Shown here: positions 1 through 10,112 of the stretch, in pieces
Position numbering within the stretch: position 1 is the first letter of the stretch
Layout: each line of letters begins with the position of its first letter
Source of the DNA: Candidatus Acidiferrales bacterium
GTDB lineage: Bacteria > Acidobacteriota > Terriglobia > Acidiferrales > UBA7541
Length of the DNA: 10,112 nt
NCBI GenBank assembly: GCA_955651735.1
Contig: CATPAM010000364.1
Span: 1 to 10,112, forward strand
Direction: 5' to 3'
Notes under the pieces: model-generated
Told to the model about the DNA's origin: nothing
Seen by the model: the letters and a program-made list of their open reading frames with translations, nothing else
The model's database searches: none
Program-made: the position numbers and the translations under genes

Positions 1-209
1 CGCGAAGATAGTAAGCGCCAGCACGACCCAAACAAAATGCGCAATGTGTGCGTAAGTGGACAGACTTCCCCCTACGTTGCAACTAACATGCGCATGTAGG
101 AAAAAACAAGAAGACTTTCGCGCAGACCCCACCTCTCGTCTGATCGTCTCGGCTTCGTCCTACATAACCAGCCATCGGAAAAACTCGCAACTCTTGGGAG
201 GACATTCGG
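1..209. other. Left-edge intergenic region with small dyads
   Basis: No convincing complete gene lies here. Positions 86-97 form a perfect 12-base palindrome (ACATGCGCATGT). It lies inside a wider inverted repeat, CCTAC at 71-75 against GTAGG at 96-100, and an 8-base palindrome GTTGCAAC sits at 76-83. On the minus strand, positions 63 to 1 are open in a frame giving a hydrophobic stretch (HFVWVVLALTIFA). That could be the first membrane segment of a divergent gene leaving the window, but only weak starts (CTG at 63, GTG at 24) are available. The plus-strand leader of the next gene ends in a strong GGGAGGA ribosome site at 196-202. I see no clear sigma-70 promoter. Confidence 0.4.
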
Positions 210-2637: not shown

Positions 2638-2728
2638 ATCGTTAAAAACGCAAAAGTGTACTCAAGTGAACAGACATAGAGTTTCAGGTCGGGCTAACAT
2701 CAGTGGCCTGGGGAATTGATAAGACAGT

Positions 2729-2953: not shown

Positions 2954-3092
2954 CTCGAGACGACGAAAGTGCCCCGCTGAGAGTCGGGTAACGATGGCCC
3001 TCTCTTAAACTTGAACCGAGTTGAATGTTCTTCAGCCAAAGGTCGTCAGACGTAAACGTCAGCAAGAGAAATTTTGACCGTGGAGGTCAGCG

Positions 3093-3806
3093 ATGAAACG
3101 ATACTTAGTTGGAGCAATGTGTCTTACTCTCGTAGCAGCCGCAGTCTATGCCAAGAAATTGAATAACGAACAGAAACGCCTGGAAAACTGCGGTGTTGTC
3201 ATGCAAGAAGTGCTCAACATCCCCGACAGTATTCCTAAAGAGCTCTTGGAAAAGGCCGAGTGCGTTATCGTGATTCCGTCCGTCCGCAAGCTTGCATTTG
3301 GAGTAGGCGCGAGCTACGGGCGCGGCGCAATGGTTTGCCGCAAGGGCGAGAAATTCAATGGATCTTGGGGAGCTCCCGCAATGTACGCGCTAGAAGGCGG
3401 CAGTGTCGGCTTTCAAATCGGCGGAGAAGCTACCGACCTGATCCTACTGGTGATGAATGACAGAGGCATGGAATCGATTCTCAGCAGCAAGATTAAATTG
3501 GGAGCGGATGCTTCCATTGCTGCAGGGCCCAAAGGACGTGACGCTTCCGCGGACACTGACGCTTGGATGCGCGCTGAGATCCTCAGTTATTCGCGTTCCC
3601 GCGGTGTGTTCGCCGGCGTCTCCCTCGAAGGATCCACGCTTCGCCCCGACGATGAGGCAAGCGAACAGGTCTACGGACATGCCATCAAGGCAAAGGACAT
3701 CGTGAGAAGTGAGACGATGGGTGTGCCCGAAACAGGCCGCCATCTCGTCAACACCTTGCAAAAGAACGCGCCGCACAACGAATCCGAACGCGCTTCGACT
3801 CCGTAG
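3093..3806 (+). CDS. Secreted SYLF-domain (Ysc84-like) lipid-binding protein
   Basis: A 237-residue exported protein. It has a signal peptide (KR at 2-3, hydrophobic core to about 18, cleavage after AYA at 20) followed by a SYLF domain over about 25-205. Supporting segments are the opening helix with NIPDSIPKELLEKAECVIVIPSV, the Gly-rich strands around 68-111, the DLILLVMNDRGMESIL segment (115-130) and SYSRSRGVFAGVSLEGS (166-181), the part that gives the family its signature. Eukaryotic SYLF domains bind phosphoinositides. Bacterial secreted members are thought to bind lipid or act at the envelope, but no substrate is known. GGAGG at 3082-3086 is 6 bases before the ATG and fixes the start. 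The polar tail after about 215 is outside the domain. It converges with the minus-strand GH130 gene and shares the terminator at 3865-3907. Confidence 0.92.
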   Translation: MKRYLVGAMCLTLVAAAVYAKKLNNEQKRLENCGVVMQEVLNIPDSIPKELLEKAECVIVIPSVRKLAFGVGASYGRGAMVCRKGEKFNGSWGAPAMYALEGGSVGFQIGGEATDLILLVMNDRGMESILSSKIKLGADASIAAGPKGRDASADTDAWMRAEILSYSRSRGVFAGVSLEGSTLRPDDEASEQVYGHAIKAKDIVRSETMGVPETGRHLVNTLQKNAPHNESERASTP

Positions 3807-4003: not shown

Positions 4004-4987
4004 TCATTTGTGACGTCGGTCGCCGCTGTGTTCCGAATGGCCGTTGGCGTCCAGCCAGCTCAGGAGAGAGCGAATGCTGCCGCGCGCCAGAGCAATACTT
4101 GAATCGGCGGCGCCATAGTAGAGATTGATAGTGTCCCCATCGGCGGCCACGGTGTAGCCGCAAGGAAATACGACGTCTTGGACATCTCCCTGACGCTCGT
4201 ACTCCGCCTCTGGCGCAAACATCCAGGAATCCCCACGGATCAGACATCTATCCGGCTGTTGAAGATCGAAGAGAGCCAGGCCCAGCCGATAGATGGAACT
4301 CGAAGGCGTCCGTCGCACGCCGTGATAGATCATCAGCCAGCCTCTTGAAGTTTCAATCGGCGGCGGCGACATGCCAATCTTGTTTGCATCCCACCAGGCG
4401 CCGCGGCGGGCTTCGAGCATGAGCTTGTGAGTTCCCCAATGACGCAAATCGGGAGAATACGAGATCCAGACGTGCGCCCCGAGAGGCGTCATGGGCCGAT
4501 GGATCAATGCCCAGAACCCACCGATCCTGCGTGGCAGCAGGGCGGCGTCCTTGTCGTCTGGCGGCATGACGACACCAATTCTTTCGAAGCTCCGAAAGTC
4601 CTCCGTCAGGGCCAAAGACACTCCGGGACCCCCGCGAGAGTAGGAAGTGTAAACCACAGCAAATTTCTTGAGTTCCGGCATGTAGGTAATGCGTGGATCC
4701 TCGATGCCCCAAATTTCCTCAGGGTATTGGTCGGGTTTGGGTAACAGTGTCGGTTCACGATCGATTTGCCAATCATCAGCACCGTTTACCGACCGGGCCG
4801 CACACAGGTGCGAGAGTCCGCGACGATCTTCCACGCGGCAAAGCAGCAGCGTGGAACCGTCAGGCAGAAGAGTTGCACCAGCGTTGAAAACGCTGTTGAT
4901 GGAATACGGCCAATCCTTTCCTGTTAGGATTGGATTGGCAGCGTGCCGGCAAAACAGCGTTTCGTATTGTTTCGTCATTGCCTTCAT
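4004..4987 (-). CDS. GH130-family beta-mannoside phosphorylase or glycosidase
   Basis: Five-bladed beta-propeller enzyme of family GH130, which acts on beta-mannosides, many members by phosphorolysis giving mannose 1-phosphate. With start ATG 4987 the protein has 327 residues, usual for the family. Visible motifs (this numbering): FNAGA (34-38), CRVEDRRG (50-57), GIEDPR (94-99) with Asp97 as the expected catalytic acid, a KDAALLPRR segment (146-154), SPPPIETSRGWLMIYHGV (207-224) and TINLYYGAAD (286-295). The Arg/His set suits a phosphorylase, but I cannot settle phosphorylase versus hydrolase, nor the substrate. There is no signal peptide, so it is cytoplasmic. A longer version from TTG 5023 is possible, but GGTGA lies 7 bases before ATG 4987. 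It follows the glycosyltransferase gene after 44 bases (8 if the TTG is used), so the two are probably one operon and act on the same mannose-containing glycan. Confidence 0.9.
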   Translation of the reverse strand: MKAMTKQYETLFCRHAANPILTGKDWPYSINSVFNAGATLLPDGSTLLLCRVEDRRGLSHLCAARSVNGADDWQIDREPTLLPKPDQYPEEIWGIEDPRITYMPELKKFAVVYTSYSRGGPGVSLALTEDFRSFERIGVVMPPDDKDAALLPRRIGGFWALIHRPMTPLGAHVWISYSPDLRHWGTHKLMLEARRGAWWDANKIGMSPPPIETSRGWLMIYHGVRRTPSSSIYRLGLALFDLQQPDRCLIRGDSWMFAPEAEYERQGDVQDVVFPCGYTVAADGDTINLYYGAADSSIALARGSIRSLLSWLDANGHSEHSGDRRHK

Positions 4988-5031
4988 CTGAATTTCACCA
5001 CGCTCCTGGAATCGATTTCTCAAGGTTTTGC

Positions 5032-7431
5032 TCAGGCTAAGAGTAACGCCTGCTTGTCAAGGCTTTTCTGAGTGCCGTCGGCTTTTTCCAACTTACGCAT
5101 TTCCAGGAGCGCCATCAGAAAGGACAAAGTGGACTCCGCACCCTGATTTTCATTTGCCCGGTCGGGATGCAAGCCGTCTCGACAACCGCCGGTAGTCGGA
5201 TCGTAGAGCGCGATTTGAAGGTCGTTGTCTCCCAAAAACCAGTTGAACGCGCACCACGCCTCTTTGCGCCAGTGGTCTTTCCCCGTAGCGCGGTAGGCCT
5301 GCACGCATGCTGAAACGACCGCACAAGCTTCGACGGGTTGTTGATCGAAACGGGCCTTTTCCGTTTTCTTGGAATAGAAGCCTTGCGATCCGATGGGCAC
5401 GAAGTGACCCTTCACATCGCAACGCTGAATCGTGACCAGCCAATCGAGGGCTTCAAGTCCCGCCGAAACCATCTCTTCGTTTGCGGCGCGTATCCCCGCT
5501 CGAATCAGAGCTTGCGGCAATCGTGCATTAGAATACGCGAGGACATTTTCAAACCAATTCCAGTCAGCGGAATGGCTGACGCGGTAGGAATTCAACAATC
5601 GATTTGCCAAAATATCGGATGCACTGAGCGCAGCGCGATCTCCTGGGAACGAGTCGAGATACTCCTGCACTCCCAGCAAGGCAAAAGCGCAGGCGCGAGG
5701 ACTCTTAAATTCGATAGCGGCGGGAACAGCCAGTTCAAACATGCGCCCCGCAGCTCCTCTCCATCCCGCGTTATTGGATCTGCCGAGAACAGTCCCCAGT
5801 CCCCACAACGCTCGCCCGTGACTGTCTTCCGAGCCCTCCGACTCCTGCCATTCGTGTTCGTAACTCAGGCAGTTTCTGAACCGTCCAGTGGCTGGATCAA
5901 ATGCAAGCCACAGGAAGGCGAGATACCGAGAGGCTAAATCGGTCACTGTTAGCGCGCCAGCTGCGTACTCTTCCAAAAGAATGGCTACGATTAGTGCGCG
6001 GGCGTTGTCATCTGTCGTGTAACCTTCCGGATAGTTAGGGACCACGAAAACCGCATGCTCGAGGATTCCGGTGTGGTCTGTCATTCGATACAGGTGGTCC
6101 AAATTTATGGTTGGAAGGTGGTCGAGAGTCTTTTCCGTATGCTGCGCCGAGAATGTGGCGCGGGGATTTCGCAGGCGCTCGTTGTATATGCGCTCAAAAC
6201 TCTTCATATATTTCTGTGCAACGCGATTCCACACCATGTCTCTTGCGTAAAGATAGGCGCGTTTCCGCATGGCGTGCCTTGCGGTGTCGTTGTCCAGAAG
6301 TTCGACTGTTTTTGCGGCAATGGCTTCCGGATCATCAAAGGGAACAAGCGCGCCACGCTCGGCATCCAACAGCTCGATTGCGTGCAGGTAGGGCGTCGAA
6401 ATGATTGCTTTGCCGGCGCTCAAAGCATACGCGAGCGTACCGGAAACGACTTGCGCTTTATGCTTGTAAGGCGTGATGTAAATGTCTGCCGCGCCGATCA
6501 ATTCAACCATCTCTTGAGGGCTCACGAAGCGATTGCGAAAGATCACATTGGCTTCAACTCCGAGATCGCTCGCCAGTTTCTGCAAGTAAATGCGGTATTT
6601 GTCGCCTTCACGCCGCAAGACATGCGGATGAGTCGCACCAGCAACCATGTAAATAACATTGCTATGACGCGACAGGATTTTTGGCAGAGCCTGGATAACA
6701 TTTTCTATGCCCTTGTTTGGCGAGAGCAGGCCAAACGTGAGCAAGACTTCTTTTCCTTCCGTTCCGAACCCGTCTTTGTAGAAGCTGGGATCCGTAAAGG
6801 GCAAATCGGGAATGCCATGCGGAATCAGGTCGATCTTGTCGATGGGAACGCGGAATACTTCCTGCAGGATCTCCGCAGAGTGCTGGCTCATGACGATCAT
6901 ACGGTCTGATAGGGCCGCAATCTCCTCCAAAACCGCGCGCTGGTCAGGATTTGGATCGCGAAGGACGGTGTGCAAGGTAGTTGCGAACGGCATTCGCAGG
7001 CGCCGCAGAAGCTCCAGGATATGCCCGCCGGCACGTCCTCCAAAGATTCCATATTCGTGTTGCAGGCAAACCAGATCGATATTGCTGAAATTTAGAAAGT
7101 CGGCGGCCTGCCGGTAGGAAGCCAGCTCATCTTCGGACAGCTCGAACCGCACTCGGACGGGATAGGCATAACCCTCGTCGGTATCGTTAACCGGGAGTGC
7201 CAACAGCTCCGTCGCTCCGTATTCGGCATGAATGGCATCGCATAAATCAGTTGTGAACGTGGCGATTCCGCACCGCCTCGGAAGATAATTCCCCACGATT
7301 GCGATTCGATTGGGGAGTGCCGGGCGCGCTGGTGCGGGTATCAGGGTGTCTGGCTTCTGTTCCAATACGAGAGACTGCACCTCAATCAGCGCTACGGTTT
7401 CGGTAAGAGGCATTATTTTCGGCGGCGACAA
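5032..7431 (-). CDS. GT4-type glycosyltransferase fused to a putative alpha/alpha-barrel domain
   Basis: A 799-residue cytoplasmic protein with two parts. Residues about 41-420 are a GT-B glycosyltransferase of family 4 type: RIAIVGNYLPRRCGIATFTTDL (43-64), LQHEYGIFGG (123-132), TTLHTVLRDP (151-160), IPHGIPD (203-209), LTFGLLSPNKGIENVI (231-246) and SGTLAYALSAGKAIISTP (330-347), which would bind the nucleotide sugar. Residues about 440-780 are helical and repetitive, with GYTTDDNARAL (470-480), EDSHGRALWGLG (535-546), WNWFENVLAYSNARLPQAL (624-642), RFDQQPVEACAV (694-705) and NENQGAESTLSFLMAL (760-775). This looks like an (alpha/alpha)6 sugar-processing fold, but its activity is unknown. The start is TTG 7431, backed by AGGA 7 bases upstream; ATG 7413 lacks such a site. 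The neighbouring GH130 enzyme suggests a mannose-containing product. The long open frame on the opposite strand (6055-6909) is a shadow. Confidence 0.88.
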   Translation of the reverse strand: MSPPKIMPLTETVALIEVQSLVLEQKPDTLIPAPARPALPNRIAIVGNYLPRRCGIATFTTDLCDAIHAEYGATELLALPVNDTDEGYAYPVRVRFELSEDELASYRQAADFLNFSNIDLVCLQHEYGIFGGRAGGHILELLRRLRMPFATTLHTVLRDPNPDQRAVLEEIAALSDRMIVMSQHSAEILQEVFRVPIDKIDLIPHGIPDLPFTDPSFYKDGFGTEGKEVLLTFGLLSPNKGIENVIQALPKILSRHSNVIYMVAGATHPHVLRREGDKYRIYLQKLASDLGVEANVIFRNRFVSPQEMVELIGAADIYITPYKHKAQVVSGTLAYALSAGKAIISTPYLHAIELLDAERGALVPFDDPEAIAAKTVELLDNDTARHAMRKRAYLYARDMVWNRVAQKYMKSFERIYNERLRNPRATFSAQHTEKTLDHLPTINLDHLYRMTDHTGILEHAVFVVPNYPEGYTTDDNARALIVAILLEEYAAGALTVTDLASRYLAFLWLAFDPATGRFRNCLSYEHEWQESEGSEDSHGRALWGLGTVLGRSNNAGWRGAAGRMFELAVPAAIEFKSPRACAFALLGVQEYLDSFPGDRAALSASDILANRLLNSYRVSHSADWNWFENVLAYSNARLPQALIRAGIRAANEEMVSAGLEALDWLVTIQRCDVKGHFVPIGSQGFYSKKTEKARFDQQPVEACAVVSACVQAYRATGKDHWRKEAWCAFNWFLGDNDLQIALYDPTTGGCRDGLHPDRANENQGAESTLSFLMALLEMRKLEKADGTQKSLDKQALLLA

Positions 7432-7570: not shown

Positions 7571-8242
7571 TTACTCGTGTAAGACAACGGTTAGTAGTGA
7601 CTTGTTGATCTTGATTTTGCCATTGTATTCGATGAAGCCCAGTTTCCTGAATTTGTTCATGAAGAAATTCACACGCGAACGCGTTGTCCCGACCATCTTC
7701 GCCAGGGTCTCTTGGGAGACTTTGGTTAGGATGCGATCCGGCTGTTCTTGTTTTCCATAACGTGCGAGGAGCAGAAGCGTGCGCGCCAGCCGTTTTTCAC
7801 TCGAGTTGAAGAGCTGATCGATCAAATCCTCTTCGACCCGGATGTTGTGGGCGAGCATGTAGCCGATGAAATGATCGGACAATTCATGCTCTTCATGGAG
7901 TACGCGTAGCAATTCATTTTTGTCGATGACGAGAATGGTGGTCGGCGTAATTGCCGTTGCCGTGCCCATGCGGACCGCCTGTCCCGCCATACATCCCTCG
8001 CCAAAAAAGTCGCTGGGGCCAAACATCGCGACCACCGCTTCCTTTCCGGACCCATTCACGACAGTGAATTTCACGCCGCCCTTTTGGACATACATAACGC
8101 TGTTCGCGGCCTCGCCCTGAGAGTAAATCGATTCGCCCCTGCGAAACTCTGCCACTTTTCTCGCTACTCCTGAAGTATCGAGAAACACCTGGGGGTCGAA
8201 AGAGTTGATCTTCTTCGATTGCAAGGATTTCTTCATCTTCAT
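7571..8242 (-). CDS. Crp/Fnr-family transcriptional regulator
   Basis: A 223-residue DNA-binding regulator. The N-terminal half (about 18-125) is a cyclic-nucleotide-binding-type beta-roll: FRRGESIYSQGEAANSVMYVQKGGVKF (33-59) and SDFFGEGCMAGQAVRMGTATA (77-97). In the pocket loop Glu82 and Arg91 align with E. coli CRP Glu72 and Arg82, but Met replaces the Ser that follows, so the ligand need not be cAMP. A dimer helix follows (about 115-145). The winged helix-turn-helix is at about 174-215, with recognition helix TTRSRVNFFMNKFRKLGFI (186-204). It lacks the Fnr-type N-terminal cysteine cluster. An in-frame stop lies 15 bases upstream of the ATG, so the start is 8242 or the ATG at 8236; the ribosome site is weak. 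The divergent promoter region holds two palindromes of Crp operator geometry, implying autoregulation and control of the DUF3494 gene. Confidence 0.92.
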   Translation of the reverse strand: MKMKKSLQSKKINSFDPQVFLDTSGVARKVAEFRRGESIYSQGEAANSVMYVQKGGVKFTVVNGSGKEAVVAMFGPSDFFGEGCMAGQAVRMGTATAITPTTILVIDKNELLRVLHEEHELSDHFIGYMLAHNIRVEEDLIDQLFNSSEKRLARTLLLLARYGKQEQPDRILTKVSQETLAKMVGTTRSRVNFFMNKFRKLGFIEYNGKIKINKSLLTVVLHE

Positions 8243-8290
8243 CTTCAGCTGGAGACATCATTGCTCCAGCTCGCTCCACGGCCGCTGCCC

Positions 8291-8296
8291 ATACTA
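8291..8296 (-). promoter_or_regulatory. Candidate -10 box of the regulator gene
   Basis: Read on the minus strand this is TAGTAT, four of six matches to TATAAT. The predicted transcript start is near 8284, leaving a leader of about 40 bases. The operator centred at 8326.5 then lies at about -42.5, within one base of the class II activator position. No good -35 is present, as expected for an activated promoter. The call rests on position and a partial match only. Confidence 0.4.
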
Positions 8297-8315
8297 ACAA
8301 GAGTGCTTCTCTCAG

Positions 8316-8337
8316 AACTGTCTTAAACAAGACAGTT
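8316..8337. promoter_or_regulatory. Crp/Fnr-type operator 1 (9-bp perfect arms)
   Basis: AACTGTCTT (8316-8324) and AAGACAGTT (8329-8337) are perfect inverted copies separated by AAAC. The 22-bp span and the TGTCT-N6-AGACA core match the dimensions of Crp-family sites (TGTGA-N6-TCACA in E. coli). It lies in the divergent region between a Crp/Fnr gene and a surface-protein gene, centred at 8326.5. Binding by the adjacent regulator is inferred. Confidence 0.75.
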
Positions 8338-8353
8338 GATTTTAAATTTGTCA

Positions 8354-8369
8354 TGTCTTTTAAGAGACA
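8354..8369. promoter_or_regulatory. Crp/Fnr-type operator 2
   Basis: TGTCT (8354-8358) and AGACA (8365-8369) form a second perfect TGTCT-N6-AGACA core, centred at 8361.5 and 35 bp from operator 1. Recurrence of the same half-site and spacing makes chance unlikely. It sits where the -35 of the plus-strand promoter would be, the class II activation arrangement. Confidence 0.72.
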
Positions 8370-8390
8370 GACGTCAGATAGTCGAATCCG

Positions 8391-8396
8391 TATATT
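8391..8396 (+). promoter_or_regulatory. Candidate -10 box of the DUF3494 lipoprotein gene
   Basis: TATATT matches TATAAT at five of six positions. Taking the usual 6-base gap to the start site puts +1 at about 8403, so operator 2 is centred at exactly -41.5 and operator 1 at -76.5. The -35 position (8368-8373) is a poor match, consistent with activator dependence. The leader before the ATG is then 80 bases long. Confidence 0.55.
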
Positions 8397-8408
8397 TCTG
8401 TACGTTCC

Positions 8409-8482: not shown

Positions 8483-9631
8483 ATGCACAAATTGATGGTT
8501 AGCAAAATTTGGATCTCGGCGTTCCTGCTGGCCGTTCTTGTAGCCGGATGCAGCGACTCGGACAAGAATGCAGGGGCCGGGAACCCCGGCGCCCCGCTAA
8601 CCCCGCCTACAGTGACCTCCGTAACTCCGCTGGACGGCTCGACAGGTGTTTGCCCCAACAATGGTCTTATCACCGCAACATTCAGCAAGCCGATGAACCC
8701 TGCGACGATCAACACCTCATTTACTTTGACCTTAAACGGGGCGAGTGTGCCTGGGACAGTCACCTACGTTGTCGCGACCCAGATTGCCACCTTTACGCCC
8801 TCGGCCACGCTTGCTGCGAGCACCACTTTTAACGCCACGATCACCACCGGGGCAGCTGACACCTTCGGCAATACGCTGGCGACCAATAAGATGTGGACGT
8901 TCACGACCTCTCCCCCTTGTCCCGCGCCCGCCGCGGTTGCTTTGGGAGCGGCCTGCACTTACGGAGTTCTGGCCGGCACTACCGTCACGAATACGGGCAA
9001 CACCCATGTTACGGGCCCCAGTCCCAGCGGAGATCTGGGACTGAGTCCAGGAAGTTCGGTGACGGGCTTTCAAGACTCACCGTTTAACACTTATGTGGGG
9101 TCAGGGACCCACACCGCCGGGCCGGGGCTCGTGAGCGGGATAATACACTTGACGGATCCTCCCCCGCCGTCGGCCACCTCCGCTGCCGCCGCCCAAGCCG
9201 CCTTGACTGTCGCGTATAACGACCTGGCTGGACGAACTGCGCCTGCTCCGGCTACTGTGGCCGGAGATTTAGGCGGGCTAACCCTCGCCCCGGGGATTTA
9301 TAAGTCCACGTCCACATTGCAGATAACCGGCACCTTGACCCTCGACGGCCAGGGCAACGCGAATGCTGTCTGGATCTTCCAGATAGCTTCCTCACTCACC
9401 ACCTTAGGCAGTAGCTCGGTTGTTCTTGCCGGCGGGGCCTCGGCGCACAACATCTTCTGGCAAGTGGGCAGTTCAGCGACTCTGGGAACCAACTCTACCT
9501 TCAACGGAAGCATCCTGGCGCTCACATCCGTCACGCTTACCACCGGCGCGACGCTGAACGGCAGAGCGCTGGCACGAAACGGCGCGGTCACGTTGGACAC
9601 CAATATGGTTACCGTACCTGCCTGTCCATGA
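8483..9631 (+). CDS. DUF3494 (ice-binding-like) lipoprotein with Ig-like domain
   Basis: A 382-residue surface lipoprotein. The signal peptide (1-22) ends in a lipobox VAG-C with Cys23 as the lipidation site. Ser at +2 argues for outer-membrane sorting by the E. coli rule. After a linker rich in Gly and Pro, residues about 41-143 resemble a bacterial Ig-like (Big_5) domain (PPTVTSVTPLDGSTG, ITATFSKPMNPATI, MWTFTTSP). Residues about 152-380 are a DUF3494 beta-solenoid: LGAACTYGVLAGTTVTNTG, GDLGLSPGSSVTGF, ANAVWIFQI (293-301), NIFWQVGSSATLGTNSTFNGSILA (323-346) and GATLNGRALA. Some DUF3494 proteins bind ice; others are thought to act in adhesion, and sequence alone cannot say which. The start is ATG 8483 with GAGGAG at 8471-8476, 6 bases upstream. 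An open frame extending back to 8336 covers the operators and is not coding. A beta-barrel gene follows after 95 bases. Confidence 0.92.
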   Translation: MHKLMVSKIWISAFLLAVLVAGCSDSDKNAGAGNPGAPLTPPTVTSVTPLDGSTGVCPNNGLITATFSKPMNPATINTSFTLTLNGASVPGTVTYVVATQIATFTPSATLAASTTFNATITTGAADTFGNTLATNKMWTFTTSPPCPAPAAVALGAACTYGVLAGTTVTNTGNTHVTGPSPSGDLGLSPGSSVTGFQDSPFNTYVGSGTHTAGPGLVSGIIHLTDPPPPSATSAAAAQAALTVAYNDLAGRTAPAPATVAGDLGGLTLAPGIYKSTSTLQITGTLTLDGQGNANAVWIFQIASSLTTLGSSSVVLAGGASAHNIFWQVGSSATLGTNSTFNGSILALTSVTLTTGATLNGRALARNGAVTLDTNMVTVPACP

Positions 9632-9726: not shown

Positions 9727-10112
9727 ATGTCATCTCAATCAAAGAGCCATCCTGGTCGGCTATTGGCAATGCTGCCGGCAATGATTGCTGTCCTGTTTAC
9801 GTTTGCCACCCTCGCCGCAGCTCAGGACCAGCCTGCTCCGAAGTGGGAGCTTTTCGGCGGATACTCCTTCTTTCAGCCGGGCGCGGATGTGCATGGCGAA
9901 CTCCCGGGAGCCTTGTTCCCGTTAAGCAGCCGCATGGAAGCGAATCCTCGCGGCGTTGGCCTCAGCGCTACCTATGATTTCAACCGCTGGTTTGGGCTCA
10001 CTCTCGATACCAGCACCCATTGGGGCAGCGGCGAGAGTGGGCTACCCAAGAGAATTGATGACGCCGCTTTTTCCAATCTTTCTTTCGGACCAAAAGTTAC
10101 TTTCCGTAGCCA
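9727..10112 (+). CDS. Outer-membrane beta-barrel protein, 5' part only (cut by window edge)
   Basis: The first 128 codons of an exported protein continue past the right edge. The start ATG 9727 has GGAGGA at 9713-9718, 8 bases upstream. A signal peptide (R11, hydrophobic core 12-31, cleavage near LAAA-Q at 32-33) is followed by PKWELFGGYSFFQPG (38-52), the usual first strand of OmpA-N-like eight-stranded barrels in Acidobacteria. Alternating strands follow (GVGLSATYDFNRWFGLTLDTS and FSNLSFGPKVTF). Whether a C-terminal OmpA peptidoglycan-binding domain follows cannot be seen. The 95-base gap after the DUF3494 gene holds only a weak hairpin (9647-9651 with 9661-9665), so the two genes may be co-transcribed. 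If so, the barrel would fall under the same Crp-type promoter. Confidence 0.82.
   Translation, partial: MSSQSKSHPGRLLAMLPAMIAVLFTFATLAAAQDQPAPKWELFGGYSFFQPGADVHGELPGALFPLSSRMEANPRGVGLSATYDFNRWFGLTLDTSTHWGSGESGLPKRIDDAAFSNLSFGPKVTFRS

Follow-up and report, generated by a model that had tools for sequence, protein, structure and literature searches.

The window analysed here, a 10,112-nucleotide stretch of Acidobacteriota DNA, carries two exact palindromes between divergent genes for a Crp/Fnr-type regulator (crp) and an ice-binding-like lipoprotein (IBP). With good confidence, we regard both as predicted operators at which a dimeric Crp/Fnr-superfamily protein like the one encoded next to them would bind, placed as at class II promoters, where activation would be the most likely outcome. 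Comparative sequence analysis indicates that the operators are real, recurring and functional-looking, that their sequence is unlike the CRP operator, and that the accompanying promoter signature is genus-wide. The source genome (G000) comprises 3.26 Mb in 577 contigs and is 73% complete; the relatives used for comparison are Candidatus Acidiferrum, Acidobacteriota, and among 80 named loci, nearly all from Acidobacteria metagenome-assembled genomes, the closest is that of Candidatus Acidiferrum typicum (89%). The relevant part of the window is laid out as follows.

4004–5023, minus strand: gene for a GH130 mannooligosaccharide-phosphorylase-like protein (PF04041, 1.8e-48)
5032–7431, minus strand: glycosyltransferase gene, 799 aa, downstream of crp (PF00534)
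7571–8242, minus strand: crp, Crp/Fnr-type regulator, 223 aa (PF00027, 4.2e-19; PF13545, 2e-12)
8296–8291, minus strand: predicted crp -10 hexamer TAGTAT, 22 nt from operator 1 (offset signature)
8319–8334, centre 8326.5, minus strand: operator 1, TGTCTTAAACAAGACA, reading TGTCTTGTTTAAGACA toward crp (exact palindrome)
8354–8369, centre 8361.5, plus strand: operator 2, TGTCTTTTAAGAGACA, followed by GAC (exact palindrome)
8391–8396, plus strand: predicted IBP -10 hexamer TATATT, 21 nt from operator 2 (offset signature)
8483–9631, plus strand: IBP, DUF3494 ice-binding-like lipoprotein gene with Big_5, 382 aa (PF11999, 8.5e-69; PF13205, 7.6e-21)
9727–10112, plus strand: outer-membrane beta-barrel protein gene, running off the window (PF13505, 9e-5, under the Pfam cut-off)

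The preliminary description had named the flanking genes as a Crp/Fnr regulator and a DUF3494 lipoprotein, and Pfam domains confirm both. The crp product has cNMP_binding (PF00027) and HTH_Crp_2 (PF13545) domains, both above cut-off, and is by this domain content a Crp/Fnr-superfamily member with an N-terminal cNMP-binding fold and a C-terminal HTH_Crp. The Ice_binding domain of IBP (PF11999, DUF3494) scores 231.8 bits against a Pfam cut-off of 28.7, which makes the protein DUF3494 ice-binding-like by domain; its residues ~148 to 379 match solved DUF3494/antifreeze proteins (best 3.7e-47), and its N-terminus, judged by eye, looks like a lipoprotein signal. The outer-membrane protein gene is probably co-transcribed with IBP; the gene order is repeated in four loci (L081, L082, L084, L085), and the full-length counterpart in the relative G022 contains OMP_b-brl and OmpA domains. 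On the other side, the glycosyltransferase gene lies directly downstream of crp in five of the nine close-orthologue loci laid out (L085, L090, L091, L092, L096) and not in L086, L087, L089 and L093, with the GH130 gene following it in L090, L091, L092 and L096; it is this gene order that points to co-transcription with crp.

The operator motif and its spacing from the -10 hexamer

The two palindromes were found exactly where the preliminary description had put them, and its arithmetic was likewise correct: from the TATATT hexamer, operator 2 lies at -41.5 and operator 1 at -76.5 of a predicted IBP start at about 8403, and from TAGTAT, operator 1 lies at -42.5 and operator 2 at -77.5 of a predicted crp start at about 8284. 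The motif it gave, TGTCT-N6-AGACA, is exact in the window, and a scan of G000 found it in these two places only (reversed-pattern control, 1), but it is too narrow, as related sites read TGTnC-N6-GnACA. Judged from these sites, the wider regulon operator is cTGTnC-N6-GnACAGAC, of which both window palindromes are instances. Among 123 oriented TGT-N10-ACA sites with a -10 hexamer at 21/22 nt, the fourth half-site position shows little preference (A.14, C.21, G.33, T.33), the fifth has C in 85% of sites and T in 11%, A/T prevails at positions 8 and 9, and the base after the palindrome is G in 85%; the window half-site TGTCT departs from this consensus at position 5. An exact twin search (TGTCT-N6-AGACA N15-25 TGTCT-N6-AGACA) matched only G000 among 151 genomes and was dropped as a conservation test because the half-site is degenerate.

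Many of these operators stand at a fixed distance from a -10 hexamer. We collected 256 oriented TGTnC-N6-GnACA sites (128 palindromes) from loci not chosen by spacing, many of them chosen for holding a Crp or DUF3494 gene, and found TAnnnT at 21 nt in 66 and at 22 nt in 26 (92/256), against 0–6 at any other distance between 5 and 40 nt; these other spacings of the same sites served as the control, since the reversed motif gave 6 oriented sites, too few to use. No TAnnnT lies at 21 or 22 nt on either side of 47 of the 128 palindromes, and 11 of the 81 with at least one such hexamer have it on both sides, where 1.4 would be expected by chance. On the promoter side, the palindrome is followed by GAC in 30 of 62 one-sided 21-nt sites, compared with 2 of 62 for the mirror image before the palindrome. 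With the hexamer at this distance, GAC occupies -33 to -31, the place of GAC in TTGACA, and the extension may thus be a partial -35 element. A site near -41.5, a -10 hexamer and a poor -35 are the sequence features, relative to predicted starts, of a class II activator-dependent promoter.

The promoter pattern follows the distribution of the regulator family. Counts of TGTnC-N6-GnACA by themselves discriminate weakly between genomes (43 in G000 against 20 for the control, with many genomes near parity and some below control), and we set them aside; with the -10 spacing added, discrimination is clear. Of the 151 genomes searched, 72, the window's own included, encode a Crp homologue at E<=1e-30, and these contain 323 copies of TGTnC-N6-GnACA-N21-TAnnnT compared with 20 in the 79 lacking one; for the reversed control the counts are 41 and 49. 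In the genus itself, the pattern occurs 186 times in 27 genomes with a homologue and 4 times in 9 without (control, 11 and 3), and site number climbs with the number of Crp matches (Spearman 0.55 over the 27), all of these tests ignoring the relatedness of the genomes and using a motif drawn partly from loci that were counted. The 21-nt pattern is absent from three genus members with Crp homologues (G008, G027, G030). It is extremely improbable that the palindromes are products of chance or sites of another factor. Allowing two mismatches, TGTCT-N6-AGACA matches the window 8 times against 3.3 expected, a count reached by 8 of 200 shuffles and so weakly above chance, which would suit a chance origin; the reappearance of the sites at orthologous genes, their constant distance from the -10 hexamer and the dependence of the pattern on a Crp homologue being present contradict it.

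As a separate observation, the reversed control ACAnG-N6-CnTGT is very abundant in four genomes of another genus (g5) of the same family, with 485, 375, 212 and 101 places in G074, G061, G051 and G071 against 78, 41, 36 and 36 for the motif itself; this excess suggests a dispersed repeat family in g5.

Recurrence at ice-binding protein genes and at crp orthologues

We compared the region upstream of IBP with those of the seven Big_5 plus DUF3494 lipoprotein genes of its type that occurred among the relatives' genes examined. The operator 2 palindrome is present at every one of them, and six (G021, G022, G016, G081, G074, G071) have TA at 21/22 nt; the seventh, G066, has the palindrome and no TA at that spacing, and its reading frame has an ambiguous base and is missing the N-terminus. 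Across six of the upstream regions (window, G022, G021, G016, G081, G074), TGT...ACAGAC is invariant and the surroundings align poorly. The site is present at IBP genes that stand apart from crp: no crp was found within the 3.5–9 kb fetched around IBP in G021, G016 and G071, and G081 and G074 each have a more distant crp homologue, about 1.4 and 3 kb away respectively, that does not share an upstream region with IBP.

This association is tight, as far as sequence comparison can tell, only for the window-type Big_5 lipoproteins. We inspected the upstream regions of 26 of the 50 DUF3494 matches besides the window's own in the 151 genomes, a hand-picked, non-random selection; a site with TA at 21/22 nt precedes 12 of them, the six IBP genes included and one site lying 396 nt upstream, and is missing from the other 14, among them G000:C92, which starts at the end of its contig. 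No site stands upstream of several additional DUF3494 genes outside the family either (e.g. L035, L037, L038, L041, L045, L048). With 14 of 26 lacking a site with that spacing, we rejected a general link between DUF3494 and Crp.

At the crp end, 11 of 12 other close orthologues have TGT-N10-ACA at -86 to -93 relative to the ATG, followed by TAnnnT at 21/22 nt; with the window counted in, this holds for 12 of 13 copies that share about 80% identity or more. The exception, L005 (G033), has no site upstream, and the other G033 crp copy has TGTCGTGTTCTAGACA, which is outside the TGTnY motif. In a wider set of 108 Crp homologues, scanned from 300 nt upstream to 45 nt past the start, TGTnY-N6-RnACA was found at 50 and not at the other 58; 24 combine the site with TAnnnT at 20–23 nt, the other 26 with a site lacking such a hexamer, whereas single-base shuffles of the same upstream regions give 1.7% for the site and 0.09% for site plus hexamer. 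Of the 12 close crp copies with the site, 7 have TAnnnT at 21/22 nt on both sides of the one palindrome. The crp-proximal site is often without the GAC extension, with GTTC in the window and GTCTTG or GTTTTG in several relatives.

Together with the 21/22-nt signature, recurrence at the orthologues of each gene upholds the earlier proposal that the palindromes are Crp-type and that each divergent gene has one site in the class II position. What is conserved is the wider operator, as neither the exact TGTCT half-sites nor the exact twin arrangement is kept at orthologous loci. The preliminary description went further and proposed that both operators act on both genes, a class II site and a far site at about -77 co-activating each. 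The shared-site geometry it described is correct, and G022 likewise has more than one site between the same two genes (L085/L012). Against this, the proximal site stands alone within 300 nt at 10 of the 12 other close crp orthologues, and the IBP genes of G021, G016, G081, G074 and G071 have a single site within 400 nt upstream. A second site was seen only where the other gene is the neighbour: G000 and G022 are the only two loci seen in which crp faces IBP, and there the crp-proximal site is one-sided and a second operator stands at IBP. Moreover, the distance between centres corresponds to about 3.3 helical turns in G000 (35 bp) and about 4.5 in G022 (47 bp), so the two sites keep neither a constant phase nor a common face; on this spacing we rejected the far site as a helically phased co-activator site. 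Shared co-activation is consequently not supported, and we consider it quite improbable.

In the reading that we prefer, with one operator for each gene, the operators would be members of the cTGTnC-N6-GnACAGAC regulon, standing at -41.5 or -42.5 of TAnnnT promoters with a partial -35. Operator 1 would serve crp and perhaps the downstream glycosyltransferase and GH130 genes, and operator 2 would serve IBP and probably the OmpA-like protein gene behind it, the active regulator recruiting RNA polymerase to its own gene and to the surface-protein genes by class II activation.

Several features of the relatives deserve mention. G022 has a third palindrome, TGTTCTGTCTTGAACA (L085:3078-3093, within 3013-3093), between the predicted IBP start and its ATG; read toward crp, it has TATATA at about the same spacing, and it may be a second, distal crp promoter or a roadblock. 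At L004, L006, L008-L011 and L013, a predicted divergent class II promoter points away from crp with no recognisable close gene downstream. Divergent from the operator-less crp orthologue of G033 (L086:1-1759, G033:C13) is a gene for a Big_5-repeat protein that matches only the N-terminal part of IBP.

The regulator, its specificity and the sign of control

The solved chains nearest to the crp product are of the Crp/Fnr family (3h3u, 3mzh, 3d0s; ~3e-20). Together with 3i54, which like these we take to be the mycobacterial CRP Rv3676, they are the closest solved sequences, with likeness over both domains. The recognition helices differ: 3h3u has ASRETVNKA and the window regulator TTRSRVNFF, an Arg-Glu (SRETVN) against an Arg-Ser-Arg (TRSRVN). 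In solved complexes of CRP with DNA, the G of TGT is contacted by Arg180 and the G after it (TGTG) by Glu181 and Arg185. By alignment to 3h3u, the window regulator keeps the equivalent of Arg180 and has Ser and Phe in place of Glu181 and Arg185, which fits the kept TGT core and the nearly free fourth base; the replacement of the G-reading residues would thus agree with the change from TGTGA to TGTnC. In the phosphate-binding stretch, the Arg is kept and the next residue is Thr in 3h3u and Met here. The protein scores 55.7 against a cut-off of 266 for the NCBIfam CRP equivalog and 27.7 bits against 228 for Fnr, below the cut-off and hence outside FNR as defined by that model, and its presumed operator, TGTnC-N6-GnACA, is not the strict cAMP-CRP operator TGTGA-N6-TCACA.

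Binding by the adjacent protein would fit the recurrence of operator 1 upstream of that regulator's orthologue group. The sites could instead be mainly those of a paralogous Crp, with several paralogues reading the same operators, which is possible although we lean against it. G000 has six Crp matches at E<=1e-30, a second Crp gene lies downstream of a class II site in G022 (L224), and most of the 108 Crp homologues listed have a similar recognition helix (TTRSRVNFFMNKFRKLGF and close variants); the four other G000 homologues among these (a pair in L079, plus single ones in L078 and L080) deviate from the window's at a few positions. With the helix so alike among most homologues, paralogues may share sites, and they are not separable by sequence. 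One G000 locus (L079:1840-3263, G000:C404) has two tandem Crp paralogue genes, 68% and 38% to the window's, with the palindrome TGTCCTATATTGGACA between them. Records of the CAJCHZ01 series titled Betaproteobacteria (L151, L176, L186) contain an 84% and other Crp homologues, and the title looks wrong.

E. coli CRP class II promoters involve a dimeric CRP fold, a 16-bp palindrome with a TGT core at -41.5 or -42.5, and a weak -35. The arrangement described here resembles them in each of these respects (CRP-fold regulator, 16-bp palindrome, TGT core, -41.5/-42.5, weak -35) and differs in its half-site, TGTnC in place of TGTGA, and in that TAnnnT is enriched at 21/22 nt only, in the sites examined here. 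The position of the site together with the poor -35 suggests activation; placement by itself leaves the sign of control unfixed. El-Robh and Busby (2002) reportedly dealt with divergent E. coli promoters under CRP. Divergent CRP promoters in E. coli are tabulated as having either one shared site or one site per promoter (PMC3105977), so the principle that one CRP site can serve two divergent promoters is known from there; what the crp copies add by comparison with that material is a single palindrome with two-sided TAnnnT at 21/22 nt.

For operator 1 in particular, an autorepressive role is conceivable, with operator 2 activating its target. The analogy is with MrpC of Myxococcus xanthus, a CRP-like protein with the operator TGTYN8RAC and sites in its own promoter, which is described as regulating itself negatively by competing with its activator (PMC4320627, PMC10701913), while the earlier of these papers states positive autoregulation (PMC4320627). 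That loose operator is nearly identical to ours, and both window palindromes fit it, as would many CRP-family sites. The crp-proximal site's frequent lack of the GAC extension would also accord with a separate role. The mrpC gene is described as having a putative sigma54-dependent promoter with at least four MrpC sites (PMC10701913); operator 1, centred at -42.5, belongs to a predicted promoter with a TAnnnT -10 hexamer. The crp site has this hexamer at the same spacing as the target promoters, by eye we saw neither a separate -35 nor a competing activator site in the crp promoter, and the placement of operator 1 recurs in 12 of the 13 close copies. We judge autorepression unlikely and prefer activation of crp from operator 1.

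Further sites and the candidate regulon

TGTnY-N6-RnACA has five matches in the window, the two operators included. Two of the others also show the promoter spacing.

47–89, plus strand: third site TGTGCGTAAGTGGACA (47–62), then GAC, with TAACAT (84–89) 21 nt away (motif and spacing)
2657–2700, plus strand: fourth site TGTACTCAAGTGAACA (2657–2672), then GAC, with TAACAT (2695–2700) 22 nt away (motif and spacing)

The third site lies upstream of the frame 210–893 and of VWA and sortase genes, and a site with TAnnnT at 21 nt was found upstream of the 210–893 orthologue in all three loci examined (L093, L096, L135), the last of which had been selected by the promoter pattern itself. The fourth lies upstream of 2729–2953, encoding a small membrane protein, and of a SYLF gene; a site with TAnnnT precedes four of seven homologues examined (L141, L030, L144, L094; L141 pattern-selected) and was not found upstream of L149, L194 and L195, L149 being cut short at 291 nt and the site of that genome lying at L093:12896. 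Both the third and the fourth site have counterparts in G021 (L093). The fifth match (1328–1343) is inside the VWA gene and has no TAnnnT at the spacing.

We then took 20 stretches with such promoters from G022 and G021 and scanned with Pfam the 18 proteins encoded within about 450 nt downstream. Those behind the sites include GGDEF, PAS, another Crp, PqqD-like, Nramp transporter and YtxH proteins, among others, and 9 of the 18 match no Pfam family at 0.001. From these annotations, the regulon reads as one of envelope, surface and signalling genes. Genomes of the genus have up to seven Crp matches, and we put forward tentatively, leaning slightly against it for now, that a Crp paralogue family with a shared altered DNA specificity controls this envelope, surface and signalling regulon largely via class II promoters, a single palindrome being able to drive two divergent ones. 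A literature search, mostly outside subscription papers, returned no description of a Crp regulon in Acidobacteria or of DUF3494 regulation.

The analysis provides a defined predicted regulator-operator pair, scannable and testable, for an uncultured soil group (Candidatus Acidiferrum and relatives), and links genes for ice-binding, OmpA-like, sortase, VWA and GGDEF proteins to a single predicted switch. The genus-wide promoter signature makes the predicted operators directly testable, and the homologues offer a natural series relating recognition-helix residues to operator bases in the CRP superfamily. One further locus in G022 (L227, L249; G022:C10) has a PqqD-like gene with a class II site ~430 nt before it, about 5 kb from a DUF3494 gene whose own upstream palindrome is without the -10 spacing.
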